From the NCBI RefSeq assembly GCF_001911425.1, contig NZ_MPPL01000001.1, positions 1,588,902-1,639,192 of the forward strand: a stretch of DNA of 50,291 nucleotides, given 5' to 3'. The translations under genes were made by a program, and so were the position numbers. Below are positions 2,848 to 20,857 of the stretch, piece after piece. How positions within the stretch are numbered: position 1 is the stretch's first letter; each line of letters starts with the position of its first letter. Source of the stretch: Mucilaginibacter polytrichastri. GTDB taxonomy: Bacteria; Bacteroidota; Bacteroidia; Sphingobacteriales; Sphingobacteriaceae. The notes beneath the pieces are model-generated. The model searched no databases. It was not told the origin of the DNA and saw only the letters and a program-made list of their open reading frames with translations.

Positions 2848-3073
2848 AAAAGGAAGATAACTATGTCATCCTGAACTTGTTTCAGGATCCCACAGGACAG
2901 GTCTGCTACTGACTTAGCAAGTGGGGTGCTGAAACAAGTTCAGCATGACGGGAGGATTCAAAGTCAAAAGTAAGATAACTATGTCGTCCTGAACTTGTTT
3001 CAGGATCCCACAGGACAGGTCTGCTACCGACTTAGCAAATGGGGTGCTGAAACAAGTTCAGCATGACGGGAGG
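2848..3073. repeat. Two tandem ~118-bp palindrome doublets
   Basis: Two nearly identical units with a 118-bp period. Each has an inverted palindrome (CCTGAA/TTCAGG stem, 2865 and 2983), a conserved spacer CCACAGGACAGGTCTGCTAC, and a second palindrome in opposite orientation (GCTGAA/TTCAGC) ending GACGGGAGG (2955 and 3073). The repeat also includes the preceding AAGATAACTAT. This is the same element as at 1-116 but with different, compensated stem bases. It fills most of the rlmB-manC interval (2824-3140). Confidence 0.9.
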
Positions 3074-3077
3074 AATC

Positions 3078-3115
3078 AAAAAAAAGGATCAGTTTTTAAA
3101 ACTAATCCTTTTTTT
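3078..3115. terminator. Bidirectional intrinsic terminator between rlmB and manC
   Basis: A-tract, stem GGAT-c-AGTTTT paired with AAAACT-a-ATCC, then a T-tract. It is symmetrical, so it could end both the plus-strand rlmB transcript and the minus-strand manC transcript. Confidence 0.8.
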
Positions 3116-11384: not shown

Positions 11385-11443
11385 GGTTTTCAGTTGGCGC
11401 TTGTCTGTTGACTGTAGGAGATGAGTTAAAAGTAAATCAGCAC

Positions 11444-11672
11444 GTCATCCTGAACTTGTTTCAGGATCCCACAGGACAGGTCTGATACATTAAAATCGTA
11501 TAGCTAAGCAAGTGGGATGCTGAAACAAGTTCAGCATGACGGGAGGGAGGAGTAAAAATCAACCAGCACGTCATCCTGAACTTGTTTCAGGATATCACAG
11601 GACAGGTCTGATACATTAAAATCGTATAGCTGAGCAAGTGGGATGCCGAAACAAGTTCGGCATGACGGGAGG
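11444..11672. repeat. Two tandem ~126-bp palindrome doublets
   Basis: Two units, 11444-11547 and 11570-11672, each with a left palindrome (CCTGAA/TTCAGG), spacer with CACAGGACAGGTCTGATAC and GCAAGTGGGAT, and a right palindrome. The right stem is GCTGAA/TTCAGC in unit 1 but GCCGAA/TTCGGC in unit 2, a paired (compensated) change. It is the same element as at 2.9 kb and occupies most of the gap 11385-11783. Confidence 0.9.
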
Positions 11673-16507: not shown

Positions 16508-17818
16508 TTAATCGTATCTCGGTATTGCCGCATAATCCAGGTCTGTGAGGTCTTTTACAGAGCCGAAGCCAATTACGTCTTTAATTACCTTGTTGTCTGT
16601 TAGTTCAACAGCACGCATTATTTTGTTGTGGCCAAACTGATCTTTAATGGCATGCATGGTTTTGCGGGCGGTTTCTTTTTTGTCCATGTCTTCAAATAGC
16701 GAGTACAGCATGTTGCCATTGTTTACGAAGTTGGTTACCGAAAGCCGCAGACTGGTGATCTGGTTGTTAAAGATGGGGGCGCATTTGGTGGTTTCCTCAA
16801 ATTTGGCAATCCGTACCTTAACCATATTCATAAGGGTTATGGCATCTTGCATGGGGGTAGATATGGTAAAGCCATCTTCCCAACGGGAACCATCTGTATA
16901 ATGACAACTAAAACCAACCGCTTTGCAGTAAAATTTATGGCGCACCATGCGTTTTTCTAAAGTGCAACAAAGAGTTAAAAACAATTGCTCCATATATTCG
17001 GCGCTTGCGCGTTTTTCTTTAGATACCTGGCGCATGGCTTGCATACCCTTGTATTCGTGCGCTACAATATTGGTTTCAATAAAATTAAGCCGGTAATGCC
17101 AGTAAATGCCCTCAATGCTCTTAAAAATGGCTTTTAATTTATGCGGATCGGCATAGCGCATTTCTAAAGGCGTATTAATGCCAGCACGCTCCAGCCGGTA
17201 ACACATCTGTTTGCCAATACCAGGCAGATTACCTAGTTTAAGCCTGCCAAGTACAGCATCAATGTTGTTTTGGTCTATTAATTGCAATCCGGCATTTGCA
17301 CCTTCGTTTTTTTTGCCGATAACAGAGCCAAGCTTGGCCAAAAAAGCATTAGGCGCAATGCCGATAGAGCAGGACAGGAAGTCACCAACCTTGTCAAGTA
17401 TATCCTGCTTAATTTTTCGGGCAAGTACTTCGGGGTCGGGGTGTACCAGTTTATAATCTGTGAGGTTAATAATTGCCTCGTCGATGCTTTTGGGTACTAC
17501 ATCCTGGCAGTATTGCTGCAAAATAGAGATGATCTTCACATGAAATTCGCGGTAACGGGTGGGGTTACTTTCTACAGGGATAAAATCCGGACAGATCTCC
17601 ATTACCTCATTTAAACGGGTGCCGGCTTTAATGCCAAGTGCCTTGGCTTCTTTAGAGAGCGATATTACACAGCCATACTTACCCGTATAAACACAAACGC
17701 CAACAGGGCGACCGCGCAGCCAAAAATTAACTTGTTGTTCGCAACGCGCAAAAAAACTGTCCATGTCTACAAATAGTACACGGGCCTCGGTTTTGGCATG
17801 GATGGAGTTTTGATTCAC
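16508..17818 (-). CDS. Y-family DNA polymerase (DinB/UmuC type)
   Basis: Translesion DNA polymerase of 436 aa. The catalytic carboxylates are present: D18 in FVDMDSFFARCEQQ, and D113 and E114 in KSIDEAIIN. GCVISLSKEAKALGIK is the fingers motif. LPGIGKQMCYRLERAGI is the thumb helix-hairpin-helix, followed by the little-finger domain. With the active site intact it is not an inactive ImuB. The motif style lies between DinB and UmuC, so no symbol is given. The start is GTG at 17818 because an in-frame stop lies two codons upstream and the next ATG falls inside the catalytic motif. No UmuD-like gene is adjacent. Confidence 0.9.
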   Translation of the reverse strand: MNQNSIHAKTEARVLFVDMDSFFARCEQQVNFWLRGRPVGVCVYTGKYGCVISLSKEAKALGIKAGTRLNEVMEICPDFIPVESNPTRYREFHVKIISILQQYCQDVVPKSIDEAIINLTDYKLVHPDPEVLARKIKQDILDKVGDFLSCSIGIAPNAFLAKLGSVIGKKNEGANAGLQLIDQNNIDAVLGRLKLGNLPGIGKQMCYRLERAGINTPLEMRYADPHKLKAIFKSIEGIYWHYRLNFIETNIVAHEYKGMQAMRQVSKEKRASAEYMEQLFLTLCCTLEKRMVRHKFYCKAVGFSCHYTDGSRWEDGFTISTPMQDAITLMNMVKVRIAKFEETTKCAPIFNNQITSLRLSVTNFVNNGNMLYSLFEDMDKKETARKTMHAIKDQFGHNKIMRAVELTDNKVIKDVIGFGSVKDLTDLDYAAIPRYD

Positions 17819-17948: not shown

Positions 17949-18034
17949 GTCATTTTGAATGTAATGAAGAATCTTCTTCGATCTGCAAGGCAGCTCTATT
18001 AATGCAGAAGATTCTTCATTACATTCAGAATGAC
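17949..18034. repeat. 86-bp near-perfect inverted repeat
   Basis: The left arm begins GTCATTTTGAATGTAATGAA and the right arm ends TTCATTACATTCAGAATGAC. About 30 bases pair, with one mismatch and a small bulge, leaving a loop of about 20 bases. It differs in sequence from the GCCGAA palindromes and is a second repeat family in this window (single copy here). It could be a small non-autonomous element or a strong hairpin at the 5' side of the polymerase gene. No coding content. Confidence 0.85.
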
Positions 18035-18081
18035 AATGGGGAGAGAAATCAAGTTTAAATTATTAATTCTGCTACCTGTGC

Positions 18082-19022
18082 TGTGGGATGCCGAAACAAG
18101 TTCGGCACGACGGCGAATATGTTGGGGGGCAAACAAAGAGGGGTTATCCAACCCTTTTTAATCCGTATTTTTCTATCTTGCTATACAGGTGGCTTCGCTG
18201 TGTATCTATATACAATCCGTCATGCCGAACTTGTTTCGGCATCCCCCAGGACGGGTATAAGATATACTTTTCACAGATTTAGCAAGTGGGATGCCGAAAC
18301 AAGTTCGGCACGACTGCAGATATATTAGGGGGCTAACAAAAGGGGTTATTCACCCCTTTTTAATCCGTATTTTTCAATCTTGCTATACAGGTGGCTTCGC
18401 TGTGTATCAATATACAATCTGTCATGCCGAACTTGTTTTGGCATCCCATCTGCTTAGTATACGACACACCATTTCACAGCCTGTCTGTAGGATGTCGAAA
18501 CAAGTTCGGTACGACGGCGAATATGTTGGGGGGACAAACAAAGTGGGGTTATTCACCCCCTTTTTATCCGTATTTTTCTATCTTGCTATACAGGTGGCTT
18601 CGCCGTGTATCTATATACAATCTGTCATGCCGAACTTGTTTCGGCATCCCACAGGACGGGTATAAGATATACTTTTAGCAGATTTAGCAAGTGGGATGCC
18701 GAAACAAGTTCGGCACGACGGCAAATATATTAGGGGGCAAACAAAAAGGGGTTATTCACCCCTTTTTAATCCGTATTTTTCAATCTTGCTATACAGGTGG
18801 CTTCGCTGTATAGCTATATACAATCCGTCATGCCGAACTTGTTTCGGCATCCCACAGGACGGGTATAAGATATACTTTTCACAGATTTAGCAAGTGGGAT
18901 GCCGAAACAAGTTAGGCACGACGGCGGATATGTTGTGGGGGCAAACAAAAAGGGGTTATTCACCCCTTTTTAATCCGTATTTTTCAATCTTGCTGTATAA
19001 GTGGCTTCGCTGTATATCTATA
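18082..19022. repeat. Five-unit ~203-bp tandem array containing copies of the response-regulator 3' end
   Basis: Units start with the palindrome GGGATG(C)CGAA at 18085, 18288, 18489, 18693 and 18896, so the period is 201-204 bp. Each unit has, in order: the palindrome, a GGGGGCAAACAAA lead, an A/T-flanked hairpin AGGGGTTATTCACCCCTT, and about 70 bp matching the 3' end of the response-regulator gene. The four upstream units then have an inverted palindrome and a spacer. In unit 5 the 3'-end segment is the gene itself (18946-19022). The copies are at about 18136-18211, 18336-18412, 18540-18616 and 18743-18819. The spacer of unit 2 has diverged. Units 2 and 4 keep the C-terminal reading frame SHLYSKIEKYGLKRGE-stop; units 1 and 3 alter its end. 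Confidence 0.92.
18946..18975 (-). terminator. Intrinsic terminator overlapping the response-regulator stop codon
   Basis: On either strand the arms AAAAAGGGG and CCCCTTTTT enclose a 7-base loop TTATTCA (TGAATAA on the coding strand). The gene's last codons (Lys-Arg-Gly-Glu) and its TAA lie inside the stem and loop. The same hairpin is present in four further copies downstream in the tandem array. Confidence 0.8.
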
Positions 19023-20338
19023 TCGTCTGCAGTTTTAGATACGTTCCAGTTGTTTTTTTCGAGCTTAAACTTAATGTATTCGCGCTCGGCAAAATCTTTA
19101 TACTCCTGGAAGTTTTTAAACTGTTCGAAATCTGTTTTAGGTTCGGCAACAGCTGTAGCGGCGGTAATAGTAGCCGGGGCAGATGGGTTGGCAAAAGCCT
19201 TTACATCACCATCGGTAATCACCTTGTCGCTCAGTATAATTAAACGTTCAACCATGTTGCGCAGCTCGCGGATGTTACCACTCCATGGCAGGGCCTTCAG
19301 GGCTTCCATCGCAGGCTCAGAGAAGCGTTTAACCGGCATGCCATATTCTGTGCAAATCTCTTCTAAAAAGTTCTGTGTAATCAATGGTATATCGTCGCGG
19401 CGCTCGGTAAGCGGTGGTACATGGATCAGTATCACACTCAGGCGGTGGTACAAATCCATCCGGAAGTTACCGTCTTCAATTTCTTTCAGCAAATCTTTGT
19501 TGGTTGCCGCCACTACACGTACATCAACTTCAATTTCCTTTTCGCCACCCACACGGGTAATCTTACTTTCTTGCAGGGCACGCAATACTTTGGCCTGGGC
19601 CGACTGGCTCATGTCGCCAATCTCATCCAAAAATAAAGTACCGCCATTGGCCGATTCAAATTTACCGATCCGCTGTTTTACAGCCGAGGTAAACGAGCCT
19701 TTTTCGTGGCCAAATAGTTCACTCTCAATTAATTCAGACGGGATAGCCGCGCAGTTAACCTCAATTAAAGGTGCATTAACACGGTTAGATTTTTCGTGCA
19801 GCCAGCGTGCAACCAGCTCTTTACCACTACCGTTGGCACCGGTAATTAATACGCGGGCATCAGTAGGTGCAACACGCTCTATCGTTTCTTTAATTTTAAC
19901 AATAGATTGTGAGTTACCCAGTATAGGGCGAACCTTTGAAACCTTGCGTTTTAATACCTTAGCTTCGGTTACCAAACTTCCTCTATCCAGGGCGTTGCGT
20001 ACGGTAATCAGCAGGCGGTTTAAGTCTGGTGGTTTCGATATAAAATCAAAGGCCCCTTTTTTGCTGGCTTCAACGGCAGTTTCAACTGTACCGTGGCCGG
20101 ATATCATGATAAAAGGCAGGTCGGGCTTAATTAATAAACCTTCTGTTAATACCTCCATGCCGTCCATGCGGTTCATTTTAATATCACACAATACCAGGTC
20201 AAAATCGTTTTTACGAATCAGTTCTAATCCGTCAATACCATTATCAATGTCTTCTACCTGGTAGTCTTCGTATTCCAAAATCTCCCTGAGCGTATTGCGT
20301 ATCGCGCGCTCGTCATCTATTATTAAAACTTTAGCCAT
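18956..20338 (-). CDS. Sigma-54-dependent response regulator, NtrC family
   Basis: 460-aa regulator with three domains. Receiver: residues 1-120, acidic pair D8/D9 and phospho-acceptor D52 in LVLCDIKM. AAA+ ATPase: about 140-370, with Walker A GANGSGKE, FLDEIGDM as Walker B and an arginine-finger region LPWSGNIRELRNMVERL. C-terminal Fis-type HTH: about 415-460, ending SHLYSKIEKYGLKRGE. The sigma-54-contacting GAFTGA loop reads GSFTSA, a departure from consensus. The 3' end is duplicated in the neighbouring tandem array and its stop codon is inside its terminator. No cognate kinase is adjacent; the nearest is the hybrid kinase at 21.5 kb. Target genes are unknown. Confidence 0.92.
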   Translation of the reverse strand: MAKVLIIDDERAIRNTLREILEYEDYQVEDIDNGIDGLELIRKNDFDLVLCDIKMNRMDGMEVLTEGLLIKPDLPFIMISGHGTVETAVEASKKGAFDFISKPPDLNRLLITVRNALDRGSLVTEAKVLKRKVSKVRPILGNSQSIVKIKETIERVAPTDARVLITGANGSGKELVARWLHEKSNRVNAPLIEVNCAAIPSELIESELFGHEKGSFTSAVKQRIGKFESANGGTLFLDEIGDMSQSAQAKVLRALQESKITRVGGEKEIEVDVRVVAATNKDLLKEIEDGNFRMDLYHRLSVILIHVPPLTERRDDIPLITQNFLEEICTEYGMPVKRFSEPAMEALKALPWSGNIRELRNMVERLIILSDKVITDGDVKAFANPSAPATITAATAVAEPKTDFEQFKNFQEYKDFAEREYIKFKLEKNNWNVSKTADDIDIQRSHLYSKIEKYGLKRGE

Positions 20339-20456: not shown

Positions 20457-20459
20457 AAC

Positions 20460-20844
20460 CAGCAGCAAAGCTGTAAGCCGGGTTCTGTGTTGCCCTGGTG
20501 GGCACTTTCTATCATTAATCTGTTCCTGAACATTGCTGCCAGGCTCTAACAACCTACCCATCCTGACCATGTTACTCAATAACATATAAAAGCGAGCAGC
20601 TTTAAATTCAGGACCTATTTGGTTTTTCAACTCCTGAGGTTTACCGCCATCCCGGTCGCCCGGTAATGCCGTGAGCTCTTACCTCACGTTTTCACCCTTA
20701 CCCCAACAAGTTGGGGCGGTATATTTTCTGTGGCACTTGCTGTCACCGGCTGGTACGGTGCCTTCCCGTTAGGAAGCAGGATGCTCTGTGTTGCCCGGAC
20801 TTTCCTCCGCCCGCCCGAAAGCAAAGCAGCGATAGAACGTTTTG
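20460..20844 (-). ncRNA. rnpB: RNase P RNA (bacterial type A)
   Basis: Catalytic RNA that removes 5' leaders from tRNA precursors. Conserved elements on the minus strand: GGCGGGCGGAGGAAAGTCC near the 5' end, the GGAAGGCACCG...CCGGTGACAG helices, the central GGGTAAGGGTGAAAACGTG with GGTAAGAGCTCACG, GCGACCGGG, and the 3' segment ACAGAACCCGGCTTACAG. About 385 nt, a normal type A length. The 3' end is set by a following intrinsic terminator; the 5' end is set from the promoter box and is accurate to perhaps 10 bases. Short open frames across it are spurious. Confidence 0.95.
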
Positions 20845-20849
20845 CATTG

Positions 20850-20857
20850 CAAAGATA
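20850..20857 (-). promoter_or_regulatory. Predicted rnpB promoter, -7 box TATCTTTG
   Basis: Minus strand TATCTTTG matches TAnnTTTG immediately upstream of the RNase P RNA. The -33 element is not evident. Between here and 21133 (about 276 bases) the sequence is AT-rich and holds no supported gene. Confidence 0.55.

Follow-up and report, generated by a model that had tools for sequence, protein, structure and literature searches.

A tandem REP array that includes the coding tail of a sigma-54 response regulator gene in Mucilaginibacter polytrichastri

The window analyzed here (50,291 nt) is part of the 5.84-Mb genome of Mucilaginibacter polytrichastri, which is assembled in three contigs and has Mucilaginibacter and related Sphingobacteriaceae as its nearest named relatives. 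We identified in it a tandem array (18064-19028, minus strand) in which the coding tail, stop codon, and terminator-like hairpin of a response regulator gene are repeated together with a dimer of palindromic REP sequences. The array very probably arose from one accidental tandem duplication around the REP dimer and was then expanded by unequal recombination. It belongs to a known kind of structure, the REP tandem clusters, and is distinguished by having taken in the coding tail of a conserved regulator. The structure is real and ordinary in kind; what is unusual is the reach of its unit into coding DNA. It means that, in Bacteroidota, a REP-bearing tandem array can absorb the coding tail, stop, and terminator of a conserved regulator while the gene stays unbroken. 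Our literature searches listed no such array in Bacteroidota and no account of gene ends within REP arrays, and none of the papers listed for Mucilaginibacter and palindromic repeats (10 of 15) was relevant, as judged from title and abstract.

Organization of the array

The regulator gene (18956-20338, minus strand) encodes a 460-aa sigma-54 (NtrC-type) response regulator with receiver, sigma-54 activation, and Fis-type HTH domains (Pfam Response_reg, Sigma54_activat, and HTH_8), and unit 1 of the array is formed by the 3' end of this gene. A bacterial RNase P RNA of class A (20458-20850, minus strand; 236.6 bits) lies just upstream. The next gene in the same direction (16508-17818, minus strand) encodes a dinB-like Y-family polymerase of the impB/mucB/samB family. 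Between the array and dinB lies a second family of inverted repeats, of the GTCATTCTGAATGTAATGAAGAATCTTC type (17950-18035); an inverted repeat of this type occupies the same slot in the relative G128 (locus L129).

Tandem Repeats Finder placed the array at 18083-19023 with a period of 203 bp, 4.6 copies, and a score of 1463, in agreement with the ~203-bp period given in the preliminary description; a period of 405 bp scores slightly higher (1526). The array length is that of the assembly, which may be in error on this point. There are four complete units of 202-204 bp, the gene end counted, namely U1 (18825-19028; the regulator gene's own end), U2 (18622-18824), U3 (18419-18621), and U4 (18217-18418), followed by the partial unit U5 (18064-18216), which ends after its first REP. 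In gene orientation, each complete unit consists of the last 68 nt of the gene with the stop codon, a terminator-like hairpin over the stop, a short spacer, a REP, a 38- to 39-bp spacer, an inverted REP, and a junction of 6 to 7 nt. The four junctions that precede a tail read GAC(G/A)GATTGTATAT. The CGTC-tagged head-to-head REP dimers, which are ~96 bp long and are assigned no strand, lie at 18827-18922 (U1), 18624-18719 (U2), 18421-18515 (U3), and 18219-18314 (U4); U5 retains a single REP (18086-18111, likewise without strand) of a truncated dimer, and the far flank of this last dimer is missing from the array. The linker between dimers measures 106 to 108 bp, of which ~96 bp match the gene side. 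The preliminary description had reported copies of ~75 bp joined to extragenic palindromes; the joining stands, the gene-derived stretch extends to ~96 bp once the terminator and 3' flank are included, and the palindromes belong to a genome-wide family of CGTC-tagged REP dimers.

The terminator-like hairpin over the regulator stop codon (18947-18971, minus strand), recognized from the sequence and its predicted fold, is also copied in U2 to U5. The predicted folds of 50-nt stretches from U1 to U5 have energies of -14.9, -14.9, -14.0, -14.4, and -7.6 kcal/mol, so that the U5 hairpin is weak. A similar hairpin across the regulator stop is seen in several relatives.

Measured against the last 68 nt of the gene, stop included (18956-19023), the tail copies in U2 (18752-18819) and U4 (18346-18413) are 94% and 93% identical, respectively, and encode the same C-terminus. 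The copy in U3 (18549-18616; 88%) contains a premature stop five residues early, and the last residues are altered to KRVG in U5 (18144-18211; 90%). The original and all copies are on the minus strand, and SHLYSKIEKYG is intact in all five units. Searching the 5.84-Mb genome with the 79-bp gene end gave five good matches, all inside the array, which bears out the original count of four copies plus the gene itself (E values of the copies, 1e-29 to 9e-22). The best match beyond the array had an E value of 0.2 among the 14 matches listed, and no tail copy was found elsewhere in the genome with this query.

The REP family and other arrays in the genome

The REP can be written as CGTC + ATGCCGAACTTGTTTCGGCAT + CCCA, in the array and genome-wide. 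An unpaired CGTC tag stands at one end, and the stem (ATGCCGAA..) and the CCCA tail can be read directly from the sequence. Head-to-head dimers predominate, as plus/minus pairs with CGTC outside, and in most loci scanned the pairs are spaced mostly 55 to 75 bp from start to start. Di Nocera et al. (2013; PMC3733652) define CGTC-tagged REPs by an unpaired CGTC (or variant) tag at one end, a stem of 8 to 9 bp starting with complementary AT, a loop of 4 to 5, and a CCA-like tail. The REPs described here fit these dimensions and resemble them in the CGTC end, AT-starting stem, and CCA-like tail, as well as in forming head-to-head dimers, occurring in Bacteroidetes, and lacking a dedicated transposase (for the present REPs, in a search of the Y1_Tnp family). 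In contrast to that survey, which calls CGTC REP clusters rare, the present genome holds many such clusters, including one with 13 dimers. A degenerate REP pattern (at most one mismatch) had 192 matches in this genome, the highest count among 149 genomes of the genus, and at least one match in 105 of the 149; a backward control pattern had none in any.

A search of the Y1_Tnp family for a transposase that accompanies the CGTC REP found none, and within this family the REP and transposase genes are not associated. Two Y1_Tnp matches occur in the genome (C1:560 kb and 3971 kb), both at a distance from the array (1607 kb), which is thus not adjacent to a RAYT gene. The fetched flanks of these two matches contained no CGTC REP. 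Across 32 Y1_Tnp loci examined (2 from this genome and the 30 best of the genus), a single locus had a REP pair in the fetched flank, located >1 kb from the match. Counts of REP and Y1 matches were uncorrelated (rho 0.14, p 0.09, n = 149 genomes), and two genomes without a Y1 match carry 48 and 28 REP matches. Locus L089 (1426-1986) holds a gene resembling those of Y1 transposases; its NHIH, WQ, and YIHDNP motifs are similar to those of the Bacteroidetes subclass 2.6 described in PMC6006769.

In Pseudomonas fluorescens SBW25, Bertels and Rainey (2011, PMC3116915) describe ordered clusters in which REPINs are repeated in tandem along with their flanks. They give 16 clusters, the largest with four REPINs and one additional REP, and three adjoining RAYT genes. 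The present array is likewise a tandem series of inverted REP pairs with flanking sequence in each unit, and its count equals that of the largest SBW25 cluster in this account. Unlike the SBW25 clusters as described there, its REP is of the CGTC type and no Y1 transposase match is adjacent. In the present array, the flank reaches into coding DNA. BIMEs are pairs and larger clusters of REPs, according to PMC3733652. The array shares with enterobacterial BIMEs the grouping of REP units in intergenic DNA and differs in its REP family. Gene ends are, to our knowledge, not a usual part of BIME arrays.

The genome contains ten other tandem REP arrays, all without a gene tail, and most have their own linkers. 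We dissected nine other clusters of at least two dimers: L091 (13 units of 121 bp), L092 (7 units of 106 to 111 bp), L093 (4 units of 152 to 155 bp), L094 (3 units of 156 bp), L096 (3 units of 112 to 113 bp), and pairs of dimers at L095, at L097, and at two sites in the window. The latter are two-unit arrays (2848-3080 and 11427-11672), both with short linkers not shared between them, and the two dimers of L097 differ enough to leave it uncounted as clearly tandem. Two further arrays are L399 (period 90) and L400 (period 104). Linkers are 24 to 60 bp long in the nine dissected clusters and 23 to 60 bp in the ten other clusters measured, which makes the linker of the regulator array the longest. 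Parts of some linkers align to the local flank (50 bp in L094, terminator-like hairpin included, and 20 bp in the array at 2848) or to the flank on the downstream side (24 bp in L095), whereas the flanks of L093 and L097 gave no convincing match. Comparing the linkers of 11 clusters (55 pairs) showed those of L092 (array 1179-1919) and L400 (array 945-1826), distant sites in the genome, to be related (score of 22, where 100 shuffles reached at most 14); two other pairs were borderline, and the linker of the regulator array resembled none of the ten compared with it. Because the L092 and L400 linkers are related, some arrays may be copies of each other or of a longer element, and these two sites may owe their likeness to the copying of an array, or of a longer REP element, from one to the other.

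The largest array found, L091 (1193-2744; G000:C1:4291691-4293244), starts 8 bp beyond the end of the coding sequence upstream of it, and its linker may include ~10 nt around the stop of that gene, a match too short for certainty. L399 (938-1891; G000:C1:4847254-4848084) consists of about ten head-to-tail single REPs rather than dimers, unlike the other arrays. In the relative G002, locus L377 (1180-1821) has three REPs in the same orientation, spaced by ~321 bp, and the long linker between them is repeated. With its many arrays, the present genome would be convenient for measuring gain and loss of REP arrays.

A screen of 253 ORF tails (ORFs of at least 120 aa) from 128 REP loci, many of which are overlapping fetches of one place, yielded no clean case of a second captured coding tail besides the regulator gene. 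The other matches were set aside by position as ORFs lying in or running through REP arrays, and the translations of two of them contain 6 and 2 REP cores. L399 was also rejected as a second captured tail, the gene's own frame ending ahead of that array.

Relatives and the origin of the array

The region downstream of the regulator was obtained from 140 of the 149 genus genomes, the present one included, in sets of 30 and 111 loci with one genome represented twice; the nine genomes with no orthologue listed were left out. Scanning up to 1,000 bp downstream with the last 60 nt of each gene revealed a second tail copy in none of 138 other genomes, the best result (35 of 60 positions identical) being noise. 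The array is thus present in 1 of 139 scanned genomes. In G137 (L223), no array was seen by eye in ~260 nt read at the gene end. The nearest relatives have 84 to 87% nucleotide identity in the regulator gene. The closest, G128, has one truncated CGTC REP directly after the terminator, in the same slot; G031 has a different palindrome there, and G002 has neither a CGTC REP nor a palindrome of the G031 type. As G128 has this single REP without an array, the array most likely arose once the G128 lineage had separated, at a site where the shared ancestry already carried a REP. We encountered neither a one-unit nor a two-unit intermediate, which leaves the founding step unseen.

The account that we favor joins the observed unit content, common short junction, 405-bp pattern, absence from the scanned relatives, and ten tail-less arrays elsewhere in the genome. 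A REP dimer located after the terminator and able to fold into a long hairpin likely triggered one tandem duplication, in which the palindrome would have stalled replication or caused it to slip. The duplicated piece would have comprised the gene tail, the terminator-like hairpin, and the REP dimer, its gene-side end lying 68 nt inside the coding sequence. The four junctions read alike, which points to one founding event. Later exchange or conversion between units would have expanded and partly homogenized the array. The regulator gene would survive such an event because the added copies come to lie downstream of its own tail, which is undisturbed. The sole likely effect would be a lengthened 3' untranslated region that carries several terminator-like and REP hairpins ahead of dinB. 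Several points weigh against this account, besides the lack of an intermediate: the two spacer types (that of U3 versus that of U1, U2, and U4) require an additional exchange step, the L092 and L400 linkers are related rather than private, the L093 and L097 linkers gave no convincing flank origin, and CGTC REP clusters are called rare in PMC3733652.

The array might instead be a selected 3' structure, in which repeated terminators and REP hairpins insulate dinB or stabilize the regulator mRNA. In favor of this, a terminator-like hairpin is predicted in each unit alongside strong REP hairpins, and a 273-nt stretch containing a REP dimer is predicted to fold, as RNA, at -100 kcal/mol (z -8.3). 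We nevertheless consider selection of this kind unlikely, with a weak hairpin in U5 (-7.6 kcal/mol) and 138 scanned relatives that manage without an array. Even less probable is active copying, in which REP dimers would multiply their neighborhood through a candidate single-strand nuclease or by template switching that uses the CGTC tag, joined at the gene's own breakpoint. That breakpoint does sit at a CGTC, identical in sequence to the REP tag; because a 6-nt insertion lies between them and a single array was considered, we give the coincidence little weight. If active copying did operate, it would make the coding tail and terminator of the gene a self-multiplying downstream cassette.

The two origins proposed in the preliminary description are both highly improbable. 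One was a C-terminal cassette array, from which recombination between gene and copies would swap the DNA-recognition helix or C-terminus. The copies are gene derived, were amplified as a unit, and, with 88 to 94% identity to the tail and a common orientation, make recombination physically possible. However, U2 and U4 encode the same C-terminus as the gene, U3 stops early, U5 alters the last residues, and SHLYSKIEKYG is unchanged throughout; given these encoded ends, exchange would yield the same or a changed end and no alternative recognition helix. The confinement of the array to one scanned genome also speaks against a cassette. The other origin was scarring by a mobile element that integrates at the 3' end of the gene and rebuilds it each time. 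Integrases are known to integrate at tRNA genes, rebuilding the gene end, and every unit places a gene end with its stop beside an inverted-repeat element. Recurrence of such a border at the same gene in relatives, as in attachment scars, was seen in none of the 138 other genomes, and REP dimers occupy many sites without a regulator tail. The genome search that had been suggested for elements bordered by the tail segment found the tail in the array alone, bordering nothing elsewhere in the genome, which likewise speaks against an integrating element.

History of the units and their codons

Within the array, U2 and U4 are identical at 192 of 203 positions and have in common ATT and a TAATAT 3' flank, while U3 and U5 have in common ATA and a CAACATATTCG flank; this alternate pairing accounts for the 405-bp period. 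One spacer is common to U1, U2, and U4, and the U3 spacer, as read from the sequence, is of a different type with ends in the opposite orientation, which suggests exchange of a dimer within the array.

The codon differences originally reported are correct. ATA is present in U3 and U5 in place of the ATT (Ile) of the gene, U2, and U4, and all four copies read CTG-TAT where the gene reads TTA-TAC (Leu-Tyr), a change of three synonymous substitutions. From these differences it had been argued that the copies derive from a version under coding selection, and the argument holds in part. ATA is also the codon in the three nearest relatives (G128, G031, and G002), which fits descent of the copies from an earlier allele of the regulator gene; for this reason, U3 and U5 probably keep an older state of the gene. 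The tail copies would thereby be a record of its earlier alleles. The three substitutions themselves carry little force as an argument, since each of the 12 Leu-Tyr codon pairs is found among the 140 loci of the genus, with TTA-TAC (23) and CTG-TAT (19) the commonest in a table that is off by one, the present genome (G000) having been entered from U5 and not from the gene.

We also examined whether a foreign allele had recently replaced the 3' end of the gene. Identity to the three nearest relatives falls to 0.75 to 0.78 in the last segment of the gene; this low value is not diagnostic, because an earlier segment is also low (0.70 to 0.80). In place of the direct repeat of the gene (TATACAG ... 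TATACAG), the U2 copy forms a perfect inverted repeat (GCTATACAG ... CTGTATAGC), and one local template switch plus one substitution may therefore be an alternative to three separate changes.
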